Shown: piece after piece, positions 10,802 through 36,722 of the stretch
Layout of the letters: every line of letters begins with the position of its first letter
How positions within the stretch are numbered: the first letter of the stretch is position 1
Source of the DNA: a virus
DNA: 37,158 nt
Strand: one strand, 5' to 3'
IMG/VR virus record: IMGVR_UViG_3300037217_000069
Span: 1-37,158 of that record
The notes under the pieces: generated by a model
Told to the model about the DNA's origin: nothing
Seen by the model: the letters and a program-made list of their open reading frames with translations, nothing else
Databases searched by the model: none
Made by a program: the position numbers and the translations under genes

Positions 10802-11638
10802 ATGGCCGTGCCCACGACGCATCGGCAATTCGGGTCGAAGGTCCGGGTTGCGGCCCAGCTGCTGGCGCTCGTGCCGGCGGATGTCCGCGTCTGGGTCGAA
10901 GGTTTCGCGGGCACGGCAGCCATGACGCTGGCCAAGGCGCCGCATCCCGCCGAGCACATCAACGACTTCAACCGCGATGTGGTCGGCCTCTATTCCGTGC
11001 TGCGCGACGATGCGCAGCGCGAGCGGCTGTGTCGGCTCTTGAGCCTGACACCGTATGCCGAGGCCGAATTCCGTGCCTGTCTCGAAGCGCTCTATGGCGG
11101 TGCCGCACCGGTCGACGATCCGGTCGAGCGCGCGCGGCAATGGCTTGTGTGCAGTTGGCAGGCGATCGGCGGCAAGCAGCTGCTGAAGGCATCGTGGCGC
11201 CTCGATCTCTGTCGATCCTGGCTGATTCCCGTTTGGCAATCCGTGCCGGCCCGGCTGCAGGAAGTGGCGGTGCGGCTGCGCGGCGCACATATCCACTGCA
11301 AGCACATCCTCGAGTTGGTCGACCTGTTCGCGGACAAGCCCGAAGTGCTGCTGTTCCTCGATCCGCCCTATCCGCGGCACACGCTGGCGACGCACGAGAC
11401 GCTCTACGCCGTCGATATGAGCGACGACGAGCATCGTGCGCTGGCGGAACGGCTGCGCACGGTCCGCTGCCGCGTGCTGCTGACCATGGGGCTCGACACG
11501 GTCTATCAGCGCGTGCTGGCCGATTGGCACGTGGTGCCGTTTTCCGTGCGCGGCATGCGCAATGCGGTCAAAACCGAGGCGGCGCTCCTCAACTACACGC
11601 CGCCGGCGCGCACGCTGTTCTGCGAGGCCGCGGAATGA
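10802..11638 (+). CDS. D12-class DNA adenine-N6 methyltransferase (Dam-like)
   Basis: A 278-residue protein. The N-terminal FGSKVRVAAQLL and the AdoMet motif EGFAGTAAM (33-41), then DFNRDVVGLYSVLRD (motif II region), and the catalytic DPPY at 187-190 with following PRHTLATHETLY are those of Dam/T4Dam-type enzymes. It should methylate adenine N6 in a short site; the site cannot be read from the sequence. Motif I has Ala-Gly-Thr instead of the usual F.G.G. ATG at 10802 is chosen because the FGSK core begins 9 residues later; an in-frame GTG at 10769 would overlap the cupin gene. The stop overlaps the next ATG. Confidence 0.85.
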   Translation: MAVPTTHRQFGSKVRVAAQLLALVPADVRVWVEGFAGTAAMTLAKAPHPAEHINDFNRDVVGLYSVLRDDAQRERLCRLLSLTPYAEAEFRACLEALYGGAAPVDDPVERARQWLVCSWQAIGGKQLLKASWRLDLCRSWLIPVWQSVPARLQEVAVRLRGAHIHCKHILELVDLFADKPEVLLFLDPPYPRHTLATHETLYAVDMSDDEHRALAERLRTVRCRVLLTMGLDTVYQRVLADWHVVPFSVRGMRNAVKTEAALLNYTPPARTLFCEAAE

Positions 11639-11916
11639 CGCGCCGGCGGCCGGTCGCGGTCGATCCCGGCGACGATCTCTTCCTGCCGGCGGAGAGGCCG
11701 GCCGGCCCGGCGCTCTCGTCCCAGGACGGTTTGCCGCCCGGACCATACCGTGTTTCGAAGACGCGCGACCTCGCGGCCGGCGGCTATTGCGAGCCGTTCA
11801 CCGTCGTGGCCGGGGATGGGCGCGCCGTCGCCGGGCACGTGCCCAGCATCGCGATCGCGCGGGCGATTGCCCAGGCGCTCAATGCAGCCGGCGCGGTCAG
11901 GGCGGCGGCGGAATGA
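11635..11916 (+). CDS. Small hypothetical protein between methylase and PP-loop gene (93 aa)
   Basis: A 93-residue protein: basic Pro-rich start, then GPYRVSKTRDLAAGGYCEPF and a helical Ala-rich end. It overlaps both neighbours by ATGA, so it is translated with the modification genes. No family recognised; it might be an adaptor for the neighbouring enzymes. Confidence 0.6.
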   Translation: MTRRRPVAVDPGDDLFLPAERPAGPALSSQDGLPPGPYRVSKTRDLAAGGYCEPFTVVAGDGRAVAGHVPSIAIARAIAQALNAAGAVRAAAE

Positions 11917-12866
11917 GCGCGATCGAGCGTTTGCCGATCGCGGTGGTGTCGGTTTCCGGCGGCAAGGACAGCCAGGCGACGGCGAACCTGGCGATCGAGC
12001 GCTATGGCAAAGACCGCGTCGTACTCGTGCATGCCGACACCGGCCATGAGCACGAGGCGACGGTCGAGTTCGTCCGCCACGATCTTCCTGCGATGCTCGG
12101 TCTACCCATACATATAGTGCGGGCCGATTTCAGCGCTGAGATTTCTCGCAAGCGGCTCTATGTCGAGCACGAATGGCCGAAGAAAGGCGTGACGGCCGAG
12201 ATCGTCGCGCGGGCGCTTTCGGTGCTGCACCCTACCAGCGTGCCGTTCCTCGATCTCTGCTTGTGGAAAGGCCGCTTCCCATCGCGTATGCGCCAATTCT
12301 GCACGCGCGAACTGAAGCGGCGCCCGCTCGACGCGTTAATGCTGGAATTGATGTCGTCGGGTGAGCTGGTCGAAAGTTGGCAAGGGGTACGGCGCGACGA
12401 AAGCCTCAATCGCGCTGATGTGCCGGATTGGGAGTGGGCCGCTGAAGGATGGAAGATCGTCCGGCCTATCGCCGGGTGGTCGGCGGAAGAGGTTGTCGCG
12501 TCCGTCCTGGCGCTCGGACAGCGGCTCAACCCGCTCTATTCGCAGGGATGCAGTCGTGTCGGCTGCATGCTGTGCATTAACGCCAGCAAAGATGATGTTG
12601 CCAATTGCGCGCGGCGGTTTCCGCAGCACATCGAGCGAATAAAAGAGTGGGAAAGCTTGGTTGGGCGCGCCAGTAAACGCGGTTTTTCCACCCTATTTGC
12701 CGTGAGCGGAGATCCAACGGAAAGCGACGAGGTCGTCTACGGCCGCTTCAACATAAATTCCATTGTCGAGTGGTCGATGACCTCGCGCGGCGGCAAGCAA
12801 TTCGATCTGTTTCGTGCGGTGGCGGAACCGCCGTCGTGCTCTTCGATCTATGGACTTTGCGAATGA
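11913..12866 (+). CDS. PP-loop ATPase of PAPS-reductase/DndC-like family
   Basis: A 317-residue protein. The PP-loop SGGKDS lies at about 15-20, HADTGHEHEATVEFV at about 40-54 and RQFCTRELKRRP near 128-139, the hallmarks of the PAPS reductase/ATP-sulfurylase superfamily. A Cys cluster C213-x4-C218-x2-C221 with C232 (CSRVGCMLC then NC) could hold an Fe-S cluster or zinc, as in DndC and related phage proteins. PP-loop enzymes adenylate a substrate and pass on sulfur. Lying between Dam-like and C5 methylases with 4-nt overlaps, it may serve DNA or tRNA modification rather than sulfate assimilation. There is no DndD/DndE/cysteine desulfurase partner in the window. Confidence 0.8.
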   Translation: MSAIERLPIAVVSVSGGKDSQATANLAIERYGKDRVVLVHADTGHEHEATVEFVRHDLPAMLGLPIHIVRADFSAEISRKRLYVEHEWPKKGVTAEIVARALSVLHPTSVPFLDLCLWKGRFPSRMRQFCTRELKRRPLDALMLELMSSGELVESWQGVRRDESLNRADVPDWEWAAEGWKIVRPIAGWSAEEVVASVLALGQRLNPLYSQGCSRVGCMLCINASKDDVANCARRFPQHIERIKEWESLVGRASKRGFSTLFAVSGDPTESDEVVYGRFNINSIVEWSMTSRGGKQFDLFRAVAEPPSCSSIYGLCE

Positions 12867-14467
12867 GCGCGGTTGAAGTGCTGCCGAGCATAGCCGCGCC
12901 GTCTGTGCGTCCGGCGAAGCCGAAGCTCGTCGCCGATCTCTATTGCGGCGCCGGCGGTCTGTCCGAAGGTGCGAAGCGCGCGCTCGAAGCGCTCGGGCTC
13001 AGCATGAAGATGGTGGGCGCCAATCACTGGCGTACAGCGATCGACACGCACCTGCGCAACCATCCCGACGCGATCCATTATTGCCAGGACGTGGCGACGA
13101 TCCGGCCGATCGAGGCTGTGCCGGCCGGATATCTCGACCTGCTGATGGCGGCGCCGAGCTGCACGCATCATTCTCGGGCGCGTGGCGGCAAACCCACCTC
13201 GGACCAACAGCGGACCGACCCGTGGCACATTGTGACCTGGCTGACCGAGTTGCGCGTCGCCCGGCTGCTTGTCGAGAACGTGCCGGAATTCCAGGATTGG
13301 GGACCGGTCTGCATGCGGACCGGCCGGCCGCTCAAATCACGCAAGGGCGAGTATTTCCGCGCCTGGATCGCGGCCATAAAGGGCCTGGGATTTCGGGTCG
13401 AATGGCGCGTGCTCAATTGCGCCGATCACGGCGATGCCACGACGCGCGAGCGCCTGTTCATCATGGCGCGATCGGACGGCAAGCGCCTGACCTGGCCGGA
13501 CGCTTCGCATAGCCGGGACGGAGGCTCGGACCTGTTCGGCCATGGCGCGCGGCGCTGGCGGCCGGCGCGCGAGATCATCGATTGGTCGATCCACGGGCAG
13601 TCCATATTCACGCGCAAGAAGCCGCTGGCACCGGCGACCATCCGCCGGATCTATGCCGGCATCACGCGCTTCGACTGGCCAGCACCCTATATCGTCATGC
13701 TGCGCCAGCACATGGACGCGCGCAGCATCGATCTGCCGCTACCGACGATTGCGGCGCAGGGCAATCATGTCGGCCTGGCGCAGCCGATCCTCCTCAACCG
13801 GCACGGTGACAACGGCAGCGTCCGGGCGCATGCGATCGACGATCCGATGCCGACGGCCGATTGCCGTGGCGCGGGATATCTGGTCGAGCCGTTCGTCCTG
13901 TCGCAGGCAAGCTGCGGCGCGCCGCGCGCGGTGTGCGACCCGATCCCGACGGCGACGGCCGACGGCGCCCATGCGCTCATCGCGCCGTATTACGGCAGCG
14001 GCTCGGGGCTGACCTGTGCCAGCCTCGGCGAGCCGCTGCACAGCCTCACGGCGCGGTCGCGGTTCGGCATCATCGTGCCGATCACGCATGTCGACGGGTC
14101 GAACCGGGCGCGCAGCCTCGAACAGCCGCTGCCGACATTGACCACGGCGAACCGGGGCGAGCTGGCCTTCATCGCGGCGGCGTTCGGCGAGCGCGAAGGG
14201 CAGGCGCCGCGTATCCACTCTCTCGACGGCCCGACGCCGACGATCTGCGCCCAGGGCCGTATCAACCTGGTCGAGCCCGGCCAGCACCGCTTCGACATTC
14301 TGTTTCGCATGCTCCAGCCGCACGAGCTCGCCGCAGCAATGGGCTTCATCGGGGAGGGGCGCACCTATCACTTCACGGGCAACAAGACAGAGGTCACGCG
14401 GCAGATCGGAAATGCGGTTCCCGTCAATACGGCGGCGGCGCTGGTCGGCGCATTGATGTCGGCATGA
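12863..14467 (+). CDS. DNA cytosine-C5 methyltransferase with repeated recognition region
   Basis: A 534-residue enzyme. Motif I DLYCGAGGLSEG (26-37), motif IV APSCTHHSRARGGK with catalytic Cys in a PSC variant of the usual PCQ, motif VI VENVPEF, motif VIII TTRERLFIMA and motif X RQIGNAVPVNTA near the end are all present. Between VIII and X, six units of roughly 31-40 residues repeat an L-x-x-P-x-P-T-type core (about residues 283-472), the place of the target-recognition domain. It should methylate cytosine C5; several recognition modules could give more than one target. Start overlaps the PP-loop stop (ATGA). Confidence 0.88.
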   Translation: MSAVEVLPSIAAPSVRPAKPKLVADLYCGAGGLSEGAKRALEALGLSMKMVGANHWRTAIDTHLRNHPDAIHYCQDVATIRPIEAVPAGYLDLLMAAPSCTHHSRARGGKPTSDQQRTDPWHIVTWLTELRVARLLVENVPEFQDWGPVCMRTGRPLKSRKGEYFRAWIAAIKGLGFRVEWRVLNCADHGDATTRERLFIMARSDGKRLTWPDASHSRDGGSDLFGHGARRWRPAREIIDWSIHGQSIFTRKKPLAPATIRRIYAGITRFDWPAPYIVMLRQHMDARSIDLPLPTIAAQGNHVGLAQPILLNRHGDNGSVRAHAIDDPMPTADCRGAGYLVEPFVLSQASCGAPRAVCDPIPTATADGAHALIAPYYGSGSGLTCASLGEPLHSLTARSRFGIIVPITHVDGSNRARSLEQPLPTLTTANRGELAFIAAAFGEREGQAPRIHSLDGPTPTICAQGRINLVEPGQHRFDILFRMLQPHELAAAMGFIGEGRTYHFTGNKTEVTRQIGNAVPVNTAAALVGALMSA

Positions 14468-17969: not shown

Positions 17970-18563
17970 ATGAGCGCTGTTCCGTCTCCGGCTCCTCTCG
18001 TTGAGGAGCGATTGCTCGTCAACAAGAGTGAGTTGGCACGGCAGGTTCTGCGGTGCTCTCTGCCGGCGCTCAACGACATGATCGACCGCGACCCGAATTT
18101 CCCGATCGTGTCGCGTGGCTCGAACGGCATCGAGTGGCAGTTCGATCCGGTCGTGGTCCAAGACTATCTGCGCGGGCTGCGCGAGGCCGCAACGAAGGCG
18201 GCCGATGATCGGCAATCCTTTCTCGCGCAATTCCGCCTGCCGATCGACGAGATCGCCCCGGACGGCGCGTCGGAACTCTCGCCCGCCGCTCGCAAGGCTC
18301 TGGCCAGCGCCCGCATGGCCGAGCGGACGCTCGCCCTGCAGACCGGCCTGCTCGTGCCGACGGCGGAAGTCCGCCAGAAGCTGCACATCGCGTTCGGAGC
18401 ACTGGCGAAGCGGCTCGGCTCGCTGGCCAAGCAGATCCGCACCGAGTTCAACCTGCCCGAAGAGGTCGAGCGTTCGATCGCCCGCCGGATCGCCGAATCG
18501 CAGCGCACCATCGTGGAAGAGCTGCGCCCGCTCCTCGAAGGCACCGAAGCGCCGCGGCAATGA
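17970..18563 (+). CDS. Terminase small subunit, Nu1-like
   Basis: A 197-residue protein with an N-terminal winged-HTH (LLVNKSELARQVLRCSLPAL then EWQFDPVVVQDYLRGLREAA), as in Nu1/DUF1441-type small terminases, and a helical C-terminus (VRQKLHIAFGALAKRLGSLA) for oligomerisation and large-subunit contact. It recognises the packaging site. GAGG lies about 9 nt upstream of the ATG. Its stop overlaps the large-subunit ATG (ATGA). Confidence 0.83.
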   Translation: MSAVPSPAPLVEERLLVNKSELARQVLRCSLPALNDMIDRDPNFPIVSRGSNGIEWQFDPVVVQDYLRGLREAATKAADDRQSFLAQFRLPIDEIAPDGASELSPAARKALASARMAERTLALQTGLLVPTAEVRQKLHIAFGALAKRLGSLAKQIRTEFNLPEEVERSIARRIAESQRTIVEELRPLLEGTEAPRQ

Positions 18564-20707: not shown

Positions 20708-21009
20708 CGTTCGACCCGCGCACATCCGACCTGGCCGGCATTCCCGAGGCGACGCTGCGGAAATGGCTGCTCGACGCGCAGACCGCGCTGCATGACCTCT
20801 CCATCGGCGGCAAGCCGCAGAGCGTCAGCTACGGCCAGGGCGACGGGTCGAAGGCGATCACCTTCACCCCGGCGACCATCGGCGTGCTGAACGCGCATAT
20901 CGCGGCGCTGAAGGCGCAGCTCGGGATTCACGGCCGCAGCCGGCACGCCATCACGCCCTTGTTCGGCGGCGGACCGAATGGCGGCGGGCGAGGCCACGGC
21001 TTCCTATGA
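20704..21009 (+). CDS. gpW-like head-tail joining protein
   Basis: A 101-residue protein. LRKWLLDAQTALHDLSIGGK, then a beta-hairpin (QSVSYGQGDGSKAITFTPAT) and GVLNAHIAALKAQLG match the helix-hairpin-helix of lambda gpW (about 68 residues), with a short Gly-rich tail. gpW stabilises packaged DNA and readies the head for tail attachment. ATGA overlaps at both ends with the terminase and the portal. Confidence 0.85.
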   Translation: MTFDPRTSDLAGIPEATLRKWLLDAQTALHDLSIGGKPQSVSYGQGDGSKAITFTPATIGVLNAHIAALKAQLGIHGRSRHAITPLFGGGPNGGGRGHGFL

Positions 21010-22745: not shown

Positions 22746-23645
22746 ATGCCGTCGCCCGCACGAGCATCGCGAGCGCGGGGTGACGTGACGCGCTTTCCGC
22801 ATTTGGCGCAGCGCCTGTTCAACGTCCCCCTCGCCATTCATCCAGACAAGGCCGAGATCGTCATGGCGGCGCTCGCCGACCGGCTGGGCGTCGCCCGGCT
22901 CTTCGGCGGTTCCGGCCAGGTCGTGGCGCTGGGGGGCTTCGAATCCGACGAGCCTGCGGCCGATGATCGCCACTACGACGTGATCGAAGGCGTGGCGATC
23001 ATCCCGGTCACCGGCACGCTCGTCGCCAAGTCCGGCACCATGCAGCCCTGGTCTGGCATGACGGGCTATGACGGCATCCGCGCCTGTCTCAGCCTGGCAA
23101 TGGCGGACCGGGCGGTGCGCGCCGTGGTGCTCGATATAGACAGTCCGGGCGGTGAGGTGTCCGGCTGTTTCGACCTGGTCGACGAGATTTTCGAGTGCCG
23201 CGGCCAGAAGCCGATCTGGGGCATCCTGTCCGAAACGGCGTATTCGGCGGCCTACGCCATCGCCAGCGCGTGCGACCGGATCACGGTGCCGCGCACCGGC
23301 GGCACCGGGTCGGTGGGCGTGATCGCGCTGCACACGGATTTCAGCCAGGCGCTGTCCGGGGCCGGGATCAAGGTCACGATCATCCAGCACGGCGCCCGGA
23401 AGTCCGATGGCAACGAGTTCAACCCGCTGGCGCCGGAGGCGCTGGCGCGCTTCCAGGCCGATATCGATGCGATGGGCGAACTCTTCTGCGCCACCGTCGC
23501 CCGCAATCGCGGCATGCAGCCGGGCGCCGTGAAGGCCACGGAAGCATCCACCTTTCTTGGCGCCGCCGGCGTCGCAATCGGCTTCGCGGACGCCGTCATG
23601 GCGCCGGACGCCGCCTTCGGAGCCTTGCTCGCCGAGCTGGGCTGA
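22746..23645 (+). CDS. S49 (SppA/ClpP-fold) head maturation protease
   Basis: A 299-residue protease of the lambda gpC type. VLDIDSPGGEVSGCFDLVDE near 131-150 is the oxyanion region, Ser167 in ETAYSAAYAIAS is the probable nucleophile and Lys219 in GARKSDGNEFNPL the general base, with GGTGSVGVIALHTD between. It should cleave scaffold and portal/capsid proteins. GAGGAGA lies about 10 nt upstream. Unlike lambda gpC it has no fused scaffold tail; a separate scaffold-like gene follows. Confidence 0.9.
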   Translation: MPSPARASRARGDVTRFPHLAQRLFNVPLAIHPDKAEIVMAALADRLGVARLFGGSGQVVALGGFESDEPAADDRHYDVIEGVAIIPVTGTLVAKSGTMQPWSGMTGYDGIRACLSLAMADRAVRAVVLDIDSPGGEVSGCFDLVDEIFECRGQKPIWGILSETAYSAAYAIASACDRITVPRTGGTGSVGVIALHTDFSQALSGAGIKVTIIQHGARKSDGNEFNPLAPEALARFQADIDAMGELFCATVARNRGMQPGAVKATEASTFLGAAGVAIGFADAVMAPDAAFGALLAELG

Positions 23646-23666: not shown

Positions 23667-24329
23667 ATGAGACTCTCCACGATGCTGCGCGGGGCCGGCT
23701 CGGCCCTGTCCTTCGCCCATTTGGCCGGCGTCCGGCCGGGCGCGGTCCGCAAGCGGGCCGACGACGGCAACAAGACCTACGACGACCAGGACGACAAGAA
23801 GCAGGCCGACGGCGAGTCCGATGAGGACTATGCCAAGCGCATGCGCGCGCGCAGCGACCTCGGCGACGATGAAAAGCAGGCCGAGGGCGAATCCGACGAG
23901 GAATACGCCTCGCGCATGCGGGCGATGGATGAGGACGAAGAGGCGCACGCCGAAGGCGACGACGAAAACGCCGAGGATAACGACCAGAAGCGCGACGACG
24001 ACGATAAGGAGATGCATGGCAACAGCGTGATCGCCCGTGCCAGGCGGCGCGAGCGCGCCCGCTGCGCCGCCATATTCGCGACCAAGGAAGCCGGTGCAAA
24101 CCCGGTGCTGGCGGCGAACCTCGCATTCCAGACGCGCCTGACCCGCCGCCAGGCGATCCGGGTGCTGCGCGATACGCCGGCGCCCCAGGCGGAAAAGCAG
24201 CATCCGCACAGCGTCGCCCGCCGCAACCCCAATCTCGGCGCCGGCGGTCAACCGGCCGGGCCGGACTCTCGCCGGGCCGCCCATGACCGCATGGTCGGCT
24301 ATCTGTCCAACGCCACCGGCAAGAAGTAG
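23667..24329 (+). CDS. Scaffold-like acidic protein with repeats
   Basis: A 220-residue protein. The middle is strongly acidic and contains two 16-residue near-repeats (QADGESDEDYAKRMRA at 46-61 and QAEGESDEEYASRMRA at 71-86); the end is basic (RARRRERARCAAIFATKEAG, RMVGYLSNATGKK). The position between protease and decoration protein, high charge and low complexity fit a capsid assembly scaffold (the lambda Nu3 role), here a separate gene. GAGGAA lies before the ATG. Confidence 0.65.
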   Translation: MRLSTMLRGAGSALSFAHLAGVRPGAVRKRADDGNKTYDDQDDKKQADGESDEDYAKRMRARSDLGDDEKQAEGESDEEYASRMRAMDEDEEAHAEGDDENAEDNDQKRDDDDKEMHGNSVIARARRRERARCAAIFATKEAGANPVLAANLAFQTRLTRRQAIRVLRDTPAPQAEKQHPHSVARRNPNLGAGGQPAGPDSRRAAHDRMVGYLSNATGKK

Positions 24330-24377: not shown

Positions 24378-25709
24378 ATGACCGGTGTACCTCTGATCGA
24401 ACTGCGCCACCGCGGCGGGTTCTGTGTTTCGCTCGCCAACGGGCATCGGTCGCTCGACCGCGGCACGGTCCAGAACAACAGCGCGTCGGTGCTGATCCTT
24501 CAGGCCGGCACCGTGCTGGCGGAACTGCCGGGCACTCCGCCAGGCGAGCCCGCCATCTACGCGCCGCTCGTCCATGCCGGCGTCGTCGGCAGCGTCGCGT
24601 CGGCTGCCCTGACCTCGCCGGGCGCCGGCTTCGCCTCGATCCCGGCGGTCAGCGCGGCCTCGGGGCAGGGCGCCAATTTCCAAGCCGCGATGCAGGCGCT
24701 GGGCGCGACGCCCACGCCGGGCTCGGCCACCGCAAGCTATCAGCCGAACGACACGGTCGTGCTGGGCGGCGGTGCCGCGTCCGTCGCCGCGGTGCTGGCA
24801 GTGCTCACCACCACGCTTGGTAGCGCCACGCCCAACGCGCCCGGCACCGGCTACACGCCAGGCGACACGATCGTGGGCAAGGGCGGCACGCCCACCTCGC
24901 CCACCGTGTTCGCAGTCGCCAGCACCAAGGTCGTCTCGGCGACGATCGCCAACCCCGGCGCCGGCGGCACGAACGGTGCCGCCGTCGTGACCGGCACGAC
25001 CGGCACCGGCACGCGGTTCCAGGCGAACGTCACCATCGCCAATGGCAGCATCTCTGCCGTCAATTCGATCGCGCTCGCCGGCGCCTATACCGTCAACCCG
25101 AATGCCCCGGCAGCGGAACCGGTCACCGGCGGCAACCTGGCGGGGGCTACGCTCAATGTCGTCCTGGGCGTGAACGCCGTCACGATCCAGTCCGGCGGTG
25201 CCTACACTGCCAATGCGCCGGCCTTGACCCAGGGCTCGACCAGCGGCGCCGGTGTTGGGGCCACCTTCAACGGCCTGATCTTCGCGCCGCTCGCGGTGTC
25301 TGTCGTGACGCCAGGCAGCTACACCGCCTTGCCGCCGATCCCGGACCCGCAGGGCTCGACCAGCGGCAACGGCGCCGGTGCCACCTTCACCATCAATTGG
25401 TGCGTGGCGTCCGTGCAGGTTTCGGGCGGCACGAACTACGACAATGGCGACGCGCTGGTCTTTGCTGGGGGCACCCCGACCACCCCGGCCGCGGGCACGA
25501 TCGTGACCAACACGGCGGGCGATCTGGTCGCCGCCGGCATCCTCTACGACCAGCTCTACATGCAGCCGAACACGGTCGCGACCAGCGCCATCGTCAATGC
25601 AGATGCCGAGGTCAACGGCTCGGAACTGATCTGGGACCCGAGCTTGTCCGCTCTTGATCAGCAGGTCGCCATCAGCCAGCTGTTCCAGCTAGGCATCAAG
25701 GTCCGCTGA
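24378..25709 (+). CDS. gpD-family head decoration protein with a large repetitive insertion
   Basis: A 443-residue protein; lambda gpD is 110. Residues 1-50 (GGFCVSLANGHRSLDRGTV, ASVLILQAGTVLAEL) and 385-443 (AAGILYDQLYMQPNTVATSA, ADAEVNGSELIWDPS, VAISQLFQLGIKVR) are the two halves of a gpD-like fold. Between them about 330 Gly/Thr/Ala-rich residues form repeats of two types: V-x-x-PG-x-Y...GSTSG-x-GATF and Y-x-x-GDT-x-V-x-x-GGT. gpD trimers sit on the outer capsid, so the insert should project outward. AGGAG lies upstream of the ATG. Confidence 0.82.
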   Translation: MTGVPLIELRHRGGFCVSLANGHRSLDRGTVQNNSASVLILQAGTVLAELPGTPPGEPAIYAPLVHAGVVGSVASAALTSPGAGFASIPAVSAASGQGANFQAAMQALGATPTPGSATASYQPNDTVVLGGGAASVAAVLAVLTTTLGSATPNAPGTGYTPGDTIVGKGGTPTSPTVFAVASTKVVSATIANPGAGGTNGAAVVTGTTGTGTRFQANVTIANGSISAVNSIALAGAYTVNPNAPAAEPVTGGNLAGATLNVVLGVNAVTIQSGGAYTANAPALTQGSTSGAGVGATFNGLIFAPLAVSVVTPGSYTALPPIPDPQGSTSGNGAGATFTINWCVASVQVSGGTNYDNGDALVFAGGTPTTPAAGTIVTNTAGDLVAAGILYDQLYMQPNTVATSAIVNADAEVNGSELIWDPSLSALDQQVAISQLFQLGIKVR

Positions 25710-25775: not shown

Positions 25776-26807
25776 ATGGTCATGTTGAATATCTTCGAGA
25801 ACGACGCGTTCTCGACCGTTCAGCTTACCCTCGCCATCGAGAAGGTGCCGTATCAGCCGACCGGCATCGGCGTGCTCAATGCCTTCGAGGATGAGCCCGT
25901 TCGAACCAAGGCGCTGGCGGTCGAGCAGCGGCAGGGCAAGCTGGTGCTGATCCCGGTCTCGGATCGCGGCGAGGAAGGCACCCAGCGCACGACCGAGCTG
26001 CGCCAGATCCGGTACTTCAACATCCCGCGCCTGATGACCAGCGACACGCTGAAGGCAGACGAGCTGCAGGGCATCCGCGAGTTCGGCCAGGAATCGGAAT
26101 TGATGCAGGTCGAGAAGGAGGTAGCCCGGCGCCTCGCCGGTCCGACCGGCCTGATGCGCAACATCGAGTACACCTGGGAATACCATAGGCTGGCCGCGAT
26201 CCAGGGCCTACTGCTCGATGCCAATGGCAGCGTGCTCTACAACTGGTTCAACGAATTCGGCATCACGCCGAACCCGGCCATCGAGTTCAATCTCGCAGCC
26301 GCCACGCCGAACTCGCTGCGCCCGGTCATCAACCAGCTGCGCCGCACCATGGCGCGCAAGTCGCAGGGGGCGTTCACGCCGACGACGCGCGTCCGGGCTC
26401 TCTGCGGCGATCAGTTCTACGACGACTTCGTCAATCATCCCGACGTGATCCGGACGTTCCTCAACTGGTCGGCCGCGTCCGATCTGCGGGACGATTCGCA
26501 GGGCGCCGCCTTCGACACCTTCACCTTCGCCGGTGTCGACTGGTGCAACTACCGCGGTTCCGACGACACGACCACGATCTCGATCCCGTCGAACCAGGTG
26601 AAGTTCTTCCCGGTCGGCGCACCCGGCATCTTCCAGCGCGGCCTGGCGCCGGCCGAGACTTTCGAATGGGTGAACACGCCGGGCAAGGCCATGTACGTCA
26701 TTCCGATCCCGGATCGCGACCGCGGCGCCTGGTGGAAGATGGAAGTCTATTCCTACCCGCTGCACATCTGCACCCGTCCCGAGGTGCTGTTCTCCGGCCA
26801 GGCTTGA
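25776..26807 (+). CDS. Major capsid protein, lambda gpE family
   Basis: A 343-residue HK97-fold capsid protein of the GpE family: MVMLNIFENDAFSTVQLTLA, LAVEQRQGKLVLIPVSDRGE, QIRYFNIPRLMTSDTLKADE, EYTWEYHRLAAIQGLLLDAN, RVRALCGDQFYDDFVNHPDV, and C-terminal RGLAPAETFEWVNTPGKAMY and YPLHICTRPEVLFS. It forms the head shell. TAGGAGT lies 9 nt upstream; the preceding 66 bp hold nothing else of note. Confidence 0.95.
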   Translation: MVMLNIFENDAFSTVQLTLAIEKVPYQPTGIGVLNAFEDEPVRTKALAVEQRQGKLVLIPVSDRGEEGTQRTTELRQIRYFNIPRLMTSDTLKADELQGIREFGQESELMQVEKEVARRLAGPTGLMRNIEYTWEYHRLAAIQGLLLDANGSVLYNWFNEFGITPNPAIEFNLAAATPNSLRPVINQLRRTMARKSQGAFTPTTRVRALCGDQFYDDFVNHPDVIRTFLNWSAASDLRDDSQGAAFDTFTFAGVDWCNYRGSDDTTTISIPSNQVKFFPVGAPGIFQRGLAPAETFEWVNTPGKAMYVIPIPDRDRGAWWKMEVYSYPLHICTRPEVLFSGQA

Positions 26808-28018: not shown

Positions 28019-29509
28019 ATGAGCGCCATCAATCCAATCAACCTTGCGCCCTATGACCCCAACAATTACGTGCCGGGCGTCTTCGGCGTGCTCAACACGT
28101 CGCAAGCGAACACGGCAACCCAGCAACAGCTGACGCTGATCATCGGGCAAATGCTCCCGAGCGGGACTTACACGCCGAACATGCCGGTATTGGCCACGTC
28201 GCTGGGCGATTGCCAGGCGGGCGCAGGTGCCGGTTCGATGCTCGCCAACGAGCTGTGGGCCTACCGGCAGAATGACAGTTTCGGCCAGGTGGTGCTGTTG
28301 CCGGTCCTGGACAATCCTCAAGGCGTAGCGGCGACGGGACAGGCTGCGATTACCGGCACGGCCACGGCGGCGGGCGTCCTCTATCTCTATATCGCTGGGC
28401 AGCGCGTTGCGGTCGGGGTCAATGCCGGTGACACGGCGGCGACGGTCGCCACGAACGCCGTCGCACAATGCGCGCTGATCCAGTCCCTGCCAGTATCGGT
28501 AGCGGCCACGTCCGGCAATATTGCGGTCACCGCGCTCCATAAGGGCCTTGAAGGCAACGACATTACCTTGATGTTGAACTTCAAGGGTGTGCCAGCCGGC
28601 GAAGTCACGCCGCCGGGCATCCAGGTGGTTTTTACGGCAATGGCGAACGGCGCCCTCAATCCGGTCATCGCCACGGCGCTCGCCAATATCCCGGCGACCA
28701 AGGCTTATGACTTCATCGTCAGCCCGTATACCGACTCGACATCGACGACGGCCGTGACCGAATTCCTGAATGCCACGACCGGGCGTTGGTCGTATCTGCA
28801 GCAGATCTTCGGCGCCGCCTGGGGCGCCATCCGCGGTAATCTTTCCGCGCTGACGACCTTCGGCGGCACGCTGAACGATCCGCATATACAGATGATGTCG
28901 TTCTTCGGCAGCCCGACACCGAATTGGGTGTGGGCGGCTGCCTATTGCGGGGCGAGCGCCGCTTCGCTGCGCGCCAATCCGGCCGTGCCGCTCAACACCA
29001 ATGCGATCCTCGGTGTCTTGGCGCCGCCGGATCAATTGCTCCTGGATCAAAGCGAGCAGAATACGCTGCTGCACACCGGTCTCTCGACTTTCGATGTCGA
29101 CCCGGCCGGCGTCGTGCATATTCAGCGCTCGGTCACGACATATCAGACCAACGCCGCGGGCGCTCCGGACAATTCTCTGCTGAATACCGAGCGCCTCTAC
29201 ACCATTCAATTCATCTGGCGCGACTATATCAATTTCCTGAAGTCGCGCTTCAGCCAGTGCATCATCGTTCCGGACGGCACGTCCATCCCGTTCGGCGCGC
29301 CCATGACGACATTGCAGCTCATCAAGCTCGCCTGCATCGCGCGCTATCAGACCTATTGCAACGCCGGCCTCGCGCAGAACCCGCAGTATTTCGCCAAGAA
29401 TATCTCCGGCGTGAACAATGGTGGCGGGTTCGTGGCGTTGGGCTTGCCCATCACGGCCAGTAATCAGCTCGAAGTGATCGGCCTGCTGTTTCAGCTGCAG
29501 CCGTCGTAG
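28019..29509 (+). CDS. Contractile tail sheath protein, Mu gpL-like
   Basis: A 496-residue sheath protein: VPGVFGVLNTSQANTATQQQ at the N-terminus (Mu gpL pattern), a variable Ala/Thr-rich insert domain, AYDFIVSPYTDSTSTTAVTE, and the conserved C-terminal core (NTERLYTIQFIWRDYINFLK, SRFSQCIIVPDGTSIPFGAP). Its presence makes this a myovirus. It is followed by the tube gene after 41 bp with GGAG. Confidence 0.9.
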   Translation: MSAINPINLAPYDPNNYVPGVFGVLNTSQANTATQQQLTLIIGQMLPSGTYTPNMPVLATSLGDCQAGAGAGSMLANELWAYRQNDSFGQVVLLPVLDNPQGVAATGQAAITGTATAAGVLYLYIAGQRVAVGVNAGDTAATVATNAVAQCALIQSLPVSVAATSGNIAVTALHKGLEGNDITLMLNFKGVPAGEVTPPGIQVVFTAMANGALNPVIATALANIPATKAYDFIVSPYTDSTSTTAVTEFLNATTGRWSYLQQIFGAAWGAIRGNLSALTTFGGTLNDPHIQMMSFFGSPTPNWVWAAAYCGASAASLRANPAVPLNTNAILGVLAPPDQLLLDQSEQNTLLHTGLSTFDVDPAGVVHIQRSVTTYQTNAAGAPDNSLLNTERLYTIQFIWRDYINFLKSRFSQCIIVPDGTSIPFGAPMTTLQLIKLACIARYQTYCNAGLAQNPQYFAKNISGVNNGGGFVALGLPITASNQLEVIGLLFQLQPS

Positions 29510-30646: not shown

Positions 30647-30658
30647 GTGGAGCCCGCC

Positions 30659-33637
30659 ATGACCGATAAAAAGGTCAGCTTCACCATCTCGGCCGTGAAC
30701 CGCTCCAGCGAGATGCTGGACAAGGTCAACAAGGATCTGGCCGCTTTCAATGCACCGGTCGAGCGGGTCAATAAGCAGTTCAGCGTCTTCCTGAAGCAAA
30801 GCGGGCTCGAGACGCTGCACAAGCGGATGAGCAGTCTGGCATCGGCGGGGCTCGACGTGTTTCGCTCGGTGTCTCGGGTCGTGACGCCGATGGCGGCGAT
30901 CACCGGTGTGGCCAGCGTCGCCGGCATGGGGCAGCTGGTCGAGAAATGGTCCGAGCTGGGCTCCCGTGCCGGCTTCACGGCTGCGCGGATTGGCGTCTCG
31001 GTCTCGTCTCTGTCGAGCTTCCAGGGCGCGGCACGCCTCGCCGGCGGCAGTGCCGAGGGCATGGCGTCGGGCTTGACTAATCTCGGCCAGACGATCAACG
31101 ACGCGATCGGCGGTCGCGCGCCGGAAGCGGTCGTGATGTTCAACACGCTCGGCATCGCGTTCCAGGACGCGGCCGGCCGGGCGCGGCCGGTCACCGAAGT
31201 CCTGCCGGAGATCGCCGACAAGATCAAAGGCATCAAGGACCCGTTCACCCAGGCGCGCATAGCCAGCACTTTGCTCGGCGGTGCGGCCGAAGACCTGCTG
31301 CCCTTCTTGCGCATGGGCAGCAAGGGCATGGCCGAATATGCGGATATGGCTCGCCGCTACGGCGTGATGAGCGATTCAGGGGCCGAAGCCGCGAACCGCC
31401 TGCGCATGGCGCAGGTCCGGACGAGCCTTGCCGTCGAAGGGCTGCAGAACTCGATCGCGGAAAAGCTGGCCCCGGTCATCGGCCCGCTGCTGACCGATAT
31501 GGCCGATTGGATAGCCGCCAATCGTGACTGGATCGCCACCGGTATCGGCGACGAAGTCCAGGAGGTCGCCGGCTGGTTGCGTCAGATGGATTGGCGCACC
31601 ATCGGACAGGACATCCGCTATGCGGTCGCCGAGGTCAATGCGGTCGTGAACGCCTTCGGTGGCTGGACGCGGGTTGCCGAGATCTTGATCGGCCTCAAGA
31701 TCGCCGGGTGGGTTGCCGGGCTGATCTCGCCGATCGCCAGCCTGGTTTCGGTGCTGGCGCGTGTCCCGGCCGCGGTCGGTGCGGTGCGGACGGCGCTGGT
31801 AGCGGCCCGCGGAGCGGGCGCGGCTGCAGCGGTCACCGAAGAGGCCGCTGCCTGGACGGCGCTTGGGACGGAAGCTGCGGCGCCGGCCGCGGCAGGGACG
31901 CTGGCTACCGGTGCGGCGACAGGAGCGGGCGCAATTGCGGCACCCCTGGCCGTTGCGGGTGGTGTGGCGGTCGGGACAGGCGTCATGGCGGCGACCTGGA
32001 CTCCGGAGGACCAGGAAAAGATCGACCGGGCCAATTACGCCGATGGCGGCGGCGGCGATTTTGACAAGGACATGCGCGAAGAATACCTGCATCCCCGCAC
32101 CCATGCGGGCGATGCTACCGATGCCGACCGGGAGCGCTGGGCGGCGCTGGCCAAGGAGCGGGCGGCGCGTGGCGAAACCTATGAGACGTTTCATGCCAAG
32201 GAGTTGTCGTCGCACGGCCCGATGTATCAAGGCGATCGGACATGGGGCGAATGGTGGGCCGGCCAGCAAGGCGAGGCACGAAAGGCGGCTTTCAAAAAGG
32301 CCGAAGATCAGGAGAAGGCGCAGGCGTCTGCTTCGGCGGAGCCGTCACCCGATGCATCAATGCGAGCGAGCCTTGATGATCATGCAGCACGTGCCGCCGA
32401 TCTGAGCGCCGGCCTGCCGCAGGCGCAGCCTGTAGCAGAAATGGCCGAGGCAGCCGGCATCAAGACGCCTGTGTCGCCGAATGAAGAGGCGAAAGCCCCC
32501 GCTCAGCAGGTGCCGAATGCGCCGCCGGCGGATGATGTCGGCGACGTGCAGCCGAGAACGGTCTTCGCCGATGATGGTCCGTCCATCATATCTGAGCTGA
32601 CAGTCCGGCAGGCGTTGCAGGTGCGGATCGACGCCGCGCATGTCCAGCTCACGGCGCTCAAGTCCGGCTTCGGATTGCGCGATAATCTGGCGTCGACACA
32701 GTCGCCGCTGGCGCCGGCTTCGGAAATCCGGACGGAGAGCGATGCCCGTTGGCAGTCCGCGGTCGATCTTGCCGCAGCCCCTCGTTCCGCGCCGGCCGGC
32801 ATAACGCCGTCGCGCTTCGCGCCGGCATCGCAGATCCATGCGGATTTCCGGCCGGAGACGCGGCCGGTCGGCGGCGCGGGCGACGAGCTGAATGCGGCGC
32901 GCGCTTTCGCCGGAGTGACCGCCCAGGCGCGCCATGAGGCGGGCCGCCACGACGCCACGGCAACGCAACAGCTGATGCAGTATTTCCGGTCTCAAGGCTG
33001 GAGCAAAGCGCAGTCCGCGGGCATCGTGGCGAGCGGCGTGGAAGAGAGCGGCCTGCGCGCCGATGCCGTCGGCGACGGCGGCCATGCGCGCGGCGGGTGG
33101 CAGTGGCATGAGGACAGGCAGGCGGAATTCAAGCGGCTTTACGGCAAGGAGTTGAAGGACGCGTCGCTGCTCGAACAGGCGGCGTTCGTCAATCACGAGC
33201 TGCGCACAGGCAACGAGCAGCGTGCGGGGCAACGACTGGCGCAAGCGCAGACCGCCGCTTCCGCCGGCAGCATCGTCTCGCAATTCTATGAGCGCCCGGC
33301 GGATGTCGAAGGCAACAAGGAACGGCGCGGCCGTCTGGCCGAGAGGATCGATGCCGAAACGCCGGAATCGACGCCGGCGGTCGCTGTAGCGCAGCAGCAA
33401 TTCGCCCCGCCGGTTGCGGCGCCGCGCGAGCCTGCTTTTGGGCCACCGGTTGCTCCGCCGCCGGTGGCGGCGCCGGGCGATCCGGGCAGCGCCGAGACGT
33501 CGCCGGTTACAGGCGCGATCGATGTCAATATCCGCCACAGCAACCCGCCGCAAGGCACTGTGCTGACGGCCAAATCCAGCGGCAACGCCTTCTCGTCGTC
33601 GCCGAACGTCGAAACTTCCATGTCGGGAATCGCATGA
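30659..33637 (+). CDS. Tape measure protein with embedded tail-lysozyme domain
   Basis: A 992-residue tape measure: helical N-terminus (KVNKDLAAFNAPVERVNKQF), a hydrophobic stretch about 335-455 typical of tape measures, a Pro/Ala-rich linker, and near 766-860 a phage tail lysozyme domain (LMQYFRSQGWSKAQSAGIVA, then GVEESGLRADAVGDGGHARG and WQWHEDRQAEF) with the catalytic Glu in EESGL. It sets tail length and, through the lysozyme, opens peptidoglycan at entry. ATG at 30659 has GGAG upstream; the GTG at 30647 is less likely. Confidence 0.9.
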   Translation: MTDKKVSFTISAVNRSSEMLDKVNKDLAAFNAPVERVNKQFSVFLKQSGLETLHKRMSSLASAGLDVFRSVSRVVTPMAAITGVASVAGMGQLVEKWSELGSRAGFTAARIGVSVSSLSSFQGAARLAGGSAEGMASGLTNLGQTINDAIGGRAPEAVVMFNTLGIAFQDAAGRARPVTEVLPEIADKIKGIKDPFTQARIASTLLGGAAEDLLPFLRMGSKGMAEYADMARRYGVMSDSGAEAANRLRMAQVRTSLAVEGLQNSIAEKLAPVIGPLLTDMADWIAANRDWIATGIGDEVQEVAGWLRQMDWRTIGQDIRYAVAEVNAVVNAFGGWTRVAEILIGLKIAGWVAGLISPIASLVSVLARVPAAVGAVRTALVAARGAGAAAAVTEEAAAWTALGTEAAAPAAAGTLATGAATGAGAIAAPLAVAGGVAVGTGVMAATWTPEDQEKIDRANYADGGGGDFDKDMREEYLHPRTHAGDATDADRERWAALAKERAARGETYETFHAKELSSHGPMYQGDRTWGEWWAGQQGEARKAAFKKAEDQEKAQASASAEPSPDASMRASLDDHAARAADLSAGLPQAQPVAEMAEAAGIKTPVSPNEEAKAPAQQVPNAPPADDVGDVQPRTVFADDGPSIISELTVRQALQVRIDAAHVQLTALKSGFGLRDNLASTQSPLAPASEIRTESDARWQSAVDLAAAPRSAPAGITPSRFAPASQIHADFRPETRPVGGAGDELNAARAFAGVTAQARHEAGRHDATATQQLMQYFRSQGWSKAQSAGIVASGVEESGLRADAVGDGGHARGGWQWHEDRQAEFKRLYGKELKDASLLEQAAFVNHELRTGNEQRAGQRLAQAQTAASAGSIVSQFYERPADVEGNKERRGRLAERIDAETPESTPAVAVAQQQFAPPVAAPREPAFGPPVAPPPVAAPGDPGSAETSPVTGAIDVNIRHSNPPQGTVLTAKSSGNAFSSSPNVETSMSGIA

Positions 33638-34517: not shown

Positions 34518-35080
34518 GTGCTCAGACCGACGCTTTCGCGTCCGGCGCGCTGGCGCTGGCCGAAGCGCTCAGGCTATCGGCCAATGACCCGGCCGATCAG
34601 ATCCGCCTGATGGTGGCGCTGGCCGGGTTTTCGCCGCCGGTGCCGATGGGGAACGCCGCGATCGGTGCCGCGATCGCCACTGCCTCGCGCTGCACGGCGG
34701 CGCTGTGCCGGCGTGCCGCTCTGATCTCGTTGGCGAATGGGTGCGCGGTCTATCAGCCGTCCAGTTACAATGATGCAGAAAACCTCAAATCCCAGGTCAC
34801 ACGGCTTTTCGACCGAGAGGCGACGATCGCCGCCGATGCCGGCGACAGTGCCACCTATCAGATGCTGTGTTCGCTGGGCGCGGCCGTGGCGCAGGATCTC
34901 GATGCGCGCGGCGCGATGTTGCCGATGCTCGCGACCTTCACGACCGGCGTTTCTATGCCGGCGCCTGTTCTGGCCTATCGCTTCTATGGCGATTCGACGC
35001 GAACCGATGATCTGATCGCGCGCGTCGACCCGCCGCATCCGGCCTTCATGCCCGTCACATTCGAGGCGCTATCGTCATGA
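34514..35080 (+). CDS. Mu gpN-like protein, C-terminal half
   Basis: A 188-residue protein. Helical start (DAFASGALALAEALRLSAND), central CRRAALISLANGCAVYQPSS and the typical gpN end: APVLAYRFYGDSTRTDDLIA then VDPPHPAFMPV.FEALS. In most Mu-like phages this is joined to the preceding gene. Here it has its own GTG (in GTGA overlap) and a good N-terminus, so the two chains are probably made separately at equal ratio. The stop overlaps the next ATG. Confidence 0.75.
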   Translation: MSAQTDAFASGALALAEALRLSANDPADQIRLMVALAGFSPPVPMGNAAIGAAIATASRCTAALCRRAALISLANGCAVYQPSSYNDAENLKSQVTRLFDREATIAADAGDSATYQMLCSLGAAVAQDLDARGAMLPMLATFTTGVSMPAPVLAYRFYGDSTRTDDLIARVDPPHPAFMPVTFEALSS

Positions 35081-36198
35081 GCGTGCTGCCGACGCCGCCC
35101 GCGCAAACGAAGCCGGGCGTGAACGACGTGACATTGATCGTGAACGGCCGGGCGTGGAAGGGCTGGCAGGACATCCGTATCACCTGCGGTTGCGAGCGGA
35201 TGCCGGACACCTTTCAGGTGACCGTGACGGAAAAATTCCCCGGTGCGGCCGATATCGATATTGAGCCGCAACAGCCCTGCCAGGTGCTGATCGGCAGCGA
35301 CCCGGTCATCACGGGCTATATCGACGACTACGGTGTGGAATACGACCACAGCAAGCATTCGGTCCAGATTACCGGCAAATCGAAATCGGAAGATCTGGTC
35401 GACTCGTCGGCTATCCTGCCCATGATGCAAATATCGGCGGCGACGGCGTTGACCCTCGCCAATCAACTCACCGCACCTTACGGCATTACGGCATCGCAGA
35501 TCGGCACGCCGGCAAACACCATCATCCCGCAATTCAACGTGACATTGGGCGAAACCGTCTACGAGATCCTCGAACGGGTCGCGCGGTATTGTCAGTTCCT
35601 GCTCTATGACGGGCCGGACGGCAACATCATCCTGGCGCAGGTCGGCACGATCAAGGCCGCTTCTGGTTTGGTCGAAGGCGTCAATGTCGAGAAAGTCAGC
35701 ATGCGCTATTCGATGGCCGAGCGCTTTCAGACCTATGTCGCGGCGACGATGTCGACGGCGTCGCTATCGGATATCGGCACCGGCGGGTGGCAGCTCGGCA
35801 CCGTGACGGACATGACTGTCACGCGGTTACGCCAGAAAATCATTGTCTCGGAACAGACCATCAATGGGAAGAGCCTGGCCGTCGCGCGCGCGAATTGGGA
35901 AAAGGCGCGGCGGATCGGCCGCAGCCAGGCCGTAACGGTGAAATGCGACAGCTGGCGCGACAGTGCCGGGAAACTGTGGACCAAGAATACCTTGGTGCCT
36001 GTGACGCTGCCCAGGGCCAAGCTGGTCAATAAGGAGTGGGTTGTCAGCGAGGTCGTCTACGTCAAGGGCGAGGAGGGTACGCACGCTGAACTGACCGTCA
36101 TGCCGGCCCTCGCGTTCACGCCGGAACCGGACCCGTTGCAAGCCTTCGACTGGCAAGCGCAGCAGGCGATCAATCAAGCCGGGGCCGGCAAGCCGTGA
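35077..36198 (+). CDS. Baseplate hub protein, Mu gpP (gp44)-like
   Basis: A 373-residue protein of the gpP/gpD hub family: VTLIVNGRAWKGWQDIRITC, ERMPDTFQVTVTEKFPGAAD, QVLIGSDPVITGYIDDYGVE, SVQITGKSKSEDLVDSSAIL, GETVYEILERVARYCQFLLY. It forms the central hub on which the spike and tube sit. ATGA overlap upstream; stop overlaps the next GTG. Confidence 0.9.
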   Translation: MSVLPTPPAQTKPGVNDVTLIVNGRAWKGWQDIRITCGCERMPDTFQVTVTEKFPGAADIDIEPQQPCQVLIGSDPVITGYIDDYGVEYDHSKHSVQITGKSKSEDLVDSSAILPMMQISAATALTLANQLTAPYGITASQIGTPANTIIPQFNVTLGETVYEILERVARYCQFLLYDGPDGNIILAQVGTIKAASGLVEGVNVEKVSMRYSMAERFQTYVAATMSTASLSDIGTGGWQLGTVTDMTVTRLRQKIIVSEQTINGKSLAVARANWEKARRIGRSQAVTVKCDSWRDSAGKLWTKNTLVPVTLPRAKLVNKEWVVSEVVYVKGEEGTHAELTVMPALAFTPEPDPLQAFDWQAQQAINQAGAGKP

Positions 36199-36722
36199 GC
36201 GGGCTCGATCGGATGCTGCGCCGGGTGCAGCAGGCGCTCGGCATCGGGCGCACCACGACCGTGCCGAACGACACGGGCAATATCCAGACGGTCCAGGTGC
36301 AGTTCAACGCGGTCACGGTCCGTGACGGCGTGCCTGTGGTCTATCATTTCGGCTTCACCGCATGCCTGCCAGTCGGCACTGATGTCACGACGGTCAGTCT
36401 TAAGGGCGATCCAACCTCGACTGTGGCCGTGGGCAGCAATAATCAGAGTCTGCGCCCGAAAGGATTGCAGCCCGGAGAAGTGCAGATCTACGACGCGATG
36501 GGCCGTTTCGTCTATTTTACCGCCAGCAACGGGATCTTGATCAACGCCAATAATACGGCGATCACGATGCAGAACGTGACGACCTTGACGGTCGACGGGC
36601 AGGTCCAGGTCAATGGCGGCATCAAGGCCACGGAAGATATCGTCGCCGGCAACATCAGCCTGATGAACCATGTCTCCACCAATGTGCAGCCCGGCAGTGG
36701 CGATAGCGGGCCGCCCAAGTAA
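36195..36722 (+). CDS. Baseplate spike protein, Mu gp45-like
   Basis: A 175-residue spike: DRMLRRVQQALGIGRTTTVP, an OB-fold part (TVQVQFNAVTVRDGVPVVYH), a beta-helix stalk of short repeats (NGILINANNTAITMQNVTTL, TVDGQVQVNGGIKATEDIVA) and the C-terminal tip NHVSTNVQPGSGDSGPPK. In Mu/P2 spikes the tip has H-x-H that binds iron; here the aligned residues are His159 and Ser161. It punctures the outer membrane. Confidence 0.87.
   Translation: MSGLDRMLRRVQQALGIGRTTTVPNDTGNIQTVQVQFNAVTVRDGVPVVYHFGFTACLPVGTDVTTVSLKGDPTSTVAVGSNNQSLRPKGLQPGEVQIYDAMGRFVYFTASNGILINANNTAITMQNVTTLTVDGQVQVNGGIKATEDIVAGNISLMNHVSTNVQPGSGDSGPPK

Follow-up and report, generated by a model that had tools for sequence, protein, structure and literature searches.

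The decoration protein gpD is the classic display scaffold of phage lambda. Proteins of the gpD type, collected in Pfam as HDPD (PF02924), are bound to the capsid as trimers and stabilise the shell (PMC7602432). The head fibre of phi29, gp8.5, realises a related idea: a beta-tulip base sits on the shell and carries an outward extension, in this case a C-terminal spike formed by a helical supercoil (PMC7602432). A third point of comparison is provided by phage Ig-like domains. As described in PMC13320782 (citing Fraser et al. 2006) and in the sheath survey PMC9230969, they are one accessory type common to head, sheath, tail and fibre proteins of different phages, and weak binding to carbohydrates at surfaces has been proposed for them (PMC9230969).

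The protein considered here is encoded in a viral record of 37,158 bases with 65% G+C; the whole of this stretch of DNA is referred to below as the window. It has both flanks, the position before a gpE-type capsid gene and the predicted core fold in common with lambda gpD and other HDPD members, but its domain is split by a 313-aa repeat module. It would resemble gp8.5 in combining a shell-binding base with an outward extension. However, its extra part is an internal insert of beta-repeats and its C-terminus is gpD; a C-terminal spike following a beta-tulip base, as in the gp8.5 type, was not found.

The Decoration Gene and Its Setting

The head genes of the window are lambda-type and its tail genes are of the contractile Mu type. 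The terminase gene (TerL, gpA) lies at 18560 and the portal gene at 21006, followed on the plus strand by an S49 head maturation protease (22746..23645; PF01343, 3.7e-25), a probable scaffold-type protein (23667..24329; phrog_6382, 1.4e-24, a PHROG of unknown function), the decoration gene (24378..25709) and a major capsid protein (MCP) of the lambda gpE family (25776..26807; PF03864, 1.7e-85). The scaffold role is suggested by position and by a D/E/K-rich sequence. The decoration gene is a single open frame of 443 codons with an ATG start, directly upstream of the capsid gene. Further downstream are the contractile tail sheath (28019..29509, plus strand; PF04984, 3.7e-20), which is without the repeat module, the tube (29551), and baseplate genes resembling Mu gpP/gp44 and gp45 (35077-36722).

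Two other loci in the window can be mentioned. A 996-aa protein (30647-33637), encoded before the DNA-circularisation gene and carrying a phage tail lysozyme domain (PF18013) near its end, is probably the tape measure protein. The reading frames of a PAPS-reductase-type protein (11562-12866) and a C5 cytosine DNA methylase (12770-14467) overlap.

The gpD Flanks

Are the two ends of the protein truly gpD? As a whole, the protein matches HDPD with its C-terminal end only (residues 377-440, 2.5e-6), and its score of 28.1 bits falls just below the gathering score of 29.1 because the domain is split by the insert. When the N-terminal flank (aa 1-65; 24378..24572) is joined to the C-terminal flank (aa 379-443; 25512..25706), both on the plus strand, the match covers positions 3-116 of the 116 in the model with an E-value of 8.9e-14 (1.6e-12 with a tighter cut), as expected from an earlier note on this DNA that had described the ends as gpD-like. 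For that note, joined flanks that did not fold like gpD would have counted against its reading. In an AF2 run with insert-free gpDs, the 10-residue block means of pLDDT in the flanks were mostly 80-94 (80-93 within aa 11-60, 80-94 in the C-terminal flank) and lower at aa 1-10 and 61-70. The top Foldseek matches of this gpD-core model were the beta-tulip decoration proteins of Sf14, PhiTE and phage 21 (SHP), followed by MoeA. These matches agree with the proposed fold and are weak (E 0.24-0.97, probability 0.54-0.92), since about 70% of the query consisted of the unresolved insert. The flanks were poorly modelled in a second AF2 run with module homologs, which had just three gpD rows. On the homology of its flanks, the product is a gpD-type head decoration protein, with a core that is predicted to adopt the beta-tulip fold.

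The Inserted Repeat Module

The insert was delimited by alignment with two homologous proteins (L023 and L046) and ten insert-free gpDs, and was modelled by AF2 with module homologs. It spans aa 66-378 (313 aa; 24573..25511, plus strand) and separates the second gpD strand ('WAPL'), which precedes it, from the 'DGSQxAAGIL' stretch immediately following. The insert reported earlier is thus present, but the range then given, aa 51-384, is too wide: a start at aa 51 takes in the second gpD strand, here 'YAPL'. Within that range Ala (61), Gly (52) and Thr (45) are the commonest residues, in line with the Gly/Thr/Ala-rich character noted before. The middle of the protein is also repetitive beyond chance: its self-alignment scores 130, whereas 200 shuffles average 90 and reach at most 118. 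Autocorrelation is strongest at lags of 78 and 39 residues, with a peak above all 200 shuffles.

The array consists of approximately 7.5 units of one repeat of 38-39 aa, in which the first unit has 36 aa and the last is partial. The two motifs that had been read as alternating types are both flavours of this single unit, and from F85 they come in the order A, B, B, a GGTNG unit, A, A, A, B, without strict alternation; the units start at F85, Y121, Y159, T198, Y237, Y276, Y315 and Y354. All lie on the plus strand. Unit 1 (flavour A, aa 85-120; 24630..24737) is followed by unit 2 (flavour B, YQPNDTVVLGGG, aa 121-158; 24738..24851), unit 3 (flavour B, YTPGDTIV..GGT, aa 159-197; 24852..24968) and unit 4 (GGTNG..TGTTGTG.RFQA, aa 198-236; 24969..25085), which is within the most conserved core. 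Then come unit 5 (YTVNP..EPVTG, aa 237-275; 25086..25202), units 6 and 7 (both flavour A; aa 276-314, 25203..25319, and aa 315-353, 25320..25436) and a partial unit 8 (flavour B, aa 354-382; 25437..25523), which continues into the C-terminal flank. Tyrosines 121, 159, 237 and 315 are invariant across 40 homologous rows and form a ladder with regular spacing, which may serve the structure or face a ligand. Duplication at the DNA level is recognisable in one pair of units only, 6 and 7, where 25230-25269 and 25350-25389 are 85% identical over 40 nt, a copy that looks recent.

Predicted Fold and Family Searches

In the first AF2 run the insert had pLDDT values below 50 and was not resolved, because the alignment held just three insert rows. 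With 37 module homologs added, aa 71-370 reached pLDDT 84-98, with one block at 78. The resulting model, with approximately one strand of 16 residues and two short strands per repeat unit, predicts a repetitive beta structure.

Does this structure belong to a described family? Scans of 40 module members with Pfam found no model for the repeats and no Ig family. The Pfam family E1_FCCH was matched in four of the 40 rows, a match that may sit in sequence after the module. Two isolated modules (L159 and L160) had no PHROG match, and the former had no NCBIfam match; the window insert gave weak stretches only against PHROGs (0.002 and 0.04). Weak matches to cytochrome c', P2_N, phrog_4406 and phrog_1922 were judged compositional. 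There was no PDB sequence match for the module, and the 50 top PDB matches of its model in Foldseek, all with a probability of at most 0.15, were judged to be noise; no Ig structure was recognised among these 50. In these searches the module matched no named family in Pfam, PHROGs, NCBIfam or PDB convincingly. It differs from Ig-like domains in being an array of 38-39-aa repeats, with neither family nor structure matches to Ig in these searches, and it is by analogy that the promiscuous Ig-like domain may serve as its nearest functional model.

Foldseek comparison of the module model with predicted viral proteins gave fifteen matches at E-values up to 0.001. Many of these are uncharacterized proteins of uncultured phages; those with a name are for the most part structural components of virions, and several belong to cyanophages. 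The BFVD entries A0A6J7WLD9, A0A6M2ZHU7 (baseplate wedge of S-SCSM1) and A0A6J5L2T0 (P22 Gp10-type) are module-like at E-values of 5.5e-9 to 3.4e-5, but they are just 16-18% identical to the module, belong to other host proteins and carry repeats without assigned function.

The Same Module in Other Virion Proteins

Homologs of the module were found in contractile tail sheaths from genomes of the family of Neoroseomonas (L117 and L118), at E-values of approximately 1e-66 and with none of 1000 shuffles reported; both proteins were confirmed as sheaths by PF04984. Another locus from genomes of this family, L121, is a weaker case. On a bacterial contig of the same family, a piece of the module lies upstream of a pectate-lyase domain (L119:1-2601, minus strand).

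A scan of viral contigs with a joint profile confirmed 152 module loci. The best 80 of these 152 comprise 45-47 large tail proteins, 29 sheaths, the two gpDs L023 and L046, and two others (L149 and L171); these 80 are the most query-like loci, and the proportions of host proteins among them are not global. A representative large tail protein, L208, matches phrog_376, and a further sheath, L180, was recognised by phrog_23. Known sheaths align to L180 outside the module only; 329 records were compared, and all fall short of covering 80% of this protein. In the same sheath (L180:2410-4875), a stretch at approximately 398-483, which overlaps the end of the module and extends beyond it, matches tail-tube proteins that have an Ig-like domain (phrog_807, NF052337), such that this protein may contain two accessory domains in succession.

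Searches of 50,697 phage records gave no match to the window insert at E-values up to 10 and none to the L160 module at E-values up to 0.01. A control search with an equal database size did recover known relatives, at 1e-24 to 1e-60. In the class of Neoroseomonas, 385 genomes were searched with a module profile and gave no match; an empty answer from such a search is weak. An alignment of short gpDs together with module fragments was discarded, as MAFFT placed the gpDs inside the module.

Inserts in gpD across Related Capsid Loci

Is an insert of this kind unusual for gpD? Used as a direct query against viral contigs, genomes, phages and plasmids, the whole 443-aa protein had no match, and gpD relatives were instead gathered through the capsid gene. 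A gpD was recovered at nearly all capsid-gene loci, three being without one. The survey of 75 non-redundant loci has the relatives of the window's capsid protein at its centre, and its proportions are not global. By length and reading, ten of the 75 gpDs have no insert (mostly proteins of 120-128 aa), 49 have an insert of one-module size, 12 of two-module size, one has an insert elsewhere (L010) and three have the repeat array. Thus, 65 of 75 relatives carry some insert, mostly an unrelated module of approximately 95 aa in a neighbouring loop. The earlier note had called the combination uncommon for gpD and had asked whether the repeats might be a common gpD extension. Inserts as such are common in this lineage, and rarity is limited to this type of repeat, which is found in three of the 75.

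The module of approximately 95 aa occurs in one or two copies in the gpDs of the closest relatives (L002:775-1428; L007:3960-4895; most gpD loci from L002 to L099). Its sequence reads NTGNG...AGxYTVEFDDATHFVVxDPxGxEVGHG...GDSFTVTVAAGSGK, and the members scanned had no Pfam or PHROG match. Like the repeat array it is a gpD insert, but it has another sequence and another site: it occupies the hairpin that links strands 1 and 2, whereas the array follows strand 2. A third insertion site is seen in the gpD at L010:4161-4862, where the extra sequence precedes the 'AGTVLG' strand. On visual inspection this insert is fibronectin type III-like, and it has no Pfam match. On the capsid tree each of the other insert classes requires several changes.

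Function of the Module

What, then, does the module do? The most probable reading, favoured with reasonable confidence, is that this gpD-type protein carries a ready-made beta-repeat module of approximately 310 aa that is displayed outward and represents a promiscuous accessory domain of virion surfaces, most likely an adhesive one. The module is housed in the loop that follows gpD strand 2. The gpD part would bind the gpE shell, presumably as trimers, and hold the module outward. Every decoration site would thus carry copies of it. Other phages use the same module within contractile sheaths, tail proteins of the phrog_376 type and a protein of the pectate-lyase type. The external display that had been proposed for the insert has good support from gpD biology and from the presence of the module in sheath, tail and spike-type proteins. 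By analogy with Ig-like domains, the module might mediate weak multivalent adhesion to glycans of the cell envelope, mucus or the surrounding matrix.

The main rival to this reading is that the module is structural cement: neighbouring arrays would touch each other and brace the capsid, or elsewhere the sheath, rather than bind anything outside. In favour of this idea, gpD has a stabilising role of its own (PMC7602432), additional domains of sheaths have been suggested to act as tail cement (PMC9230969), and the sequence constraint on the array fits contact surfaces. However, gpD, a helical sheath, phrog_376-type proteins and a pectate-lyase-type protein differ greatly in geometry, which makes a single common lattice contact unlikely and argues for an outward, accessory role. 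Moreover, closely related capsids have no insert or an unrelated one. A bracing role is considered improbable, though less so than the explanations that follow.

Could the array instead be a neutral, low-complexity expansion of gpD without specific function? Its composition is biased towards Ala, Gly and Thr, it has internal repeats, and one pair of units was seemingly duplicated recently. In contrast, the same gpD with the same insert is found on two independent viral contigs from other metagenomes (L023 and L046, 60-61% identity), and the length of the insert is kept within 2 residues across the three phages. The insert is conserved like the gpD ends, its identity to L023 and L046 being 61% and 60%, compared with 62% and 59% for one flank and 55% and 58% for the other. 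Between the window and L023, pN/pS is 0.55 for the insert and 0.56 and 0.92 for the flanks; overall, the insert ranges from 0.42 to 0.55. A confident predicted fold and homologs at 152 viral loci in several host proteins also speak against neutral expansion, which is very improbable and was rejected. That the open reading frame is a chimera or a frame artefact, as might be suspected of a single virus record that is possibly a fragment, is effectively refuted by L023 and L046, which have the same fusion in the same place without stops and form one clade with the window on the capsid tree (100/99).

It is somewhat favoured that tailed phages have, besides the Ig-like domains, a second promiscuous module for their surfaces in the 38-39-aa beta-repeat, moving among gpD, sheath, phrog_376-type and spike-type proteins in several morphotypes. 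In this lineage gpD would then act as a loading dock, with two or three loops at which unrelated display modules replace one another. Nature would use gpD as a display scaffold, with folded modules in internal loops that are exchanged between related phages, and the insertion sites that are naturally tolerated are indicated for phage display. The analysis also identifies a widespread virion-surface domain, unnamed in the family libraries and absent from the phage records searched. If the module is an adhesin, it would help to explain how environmental phages keep their hold on glycan-rich surroundings.
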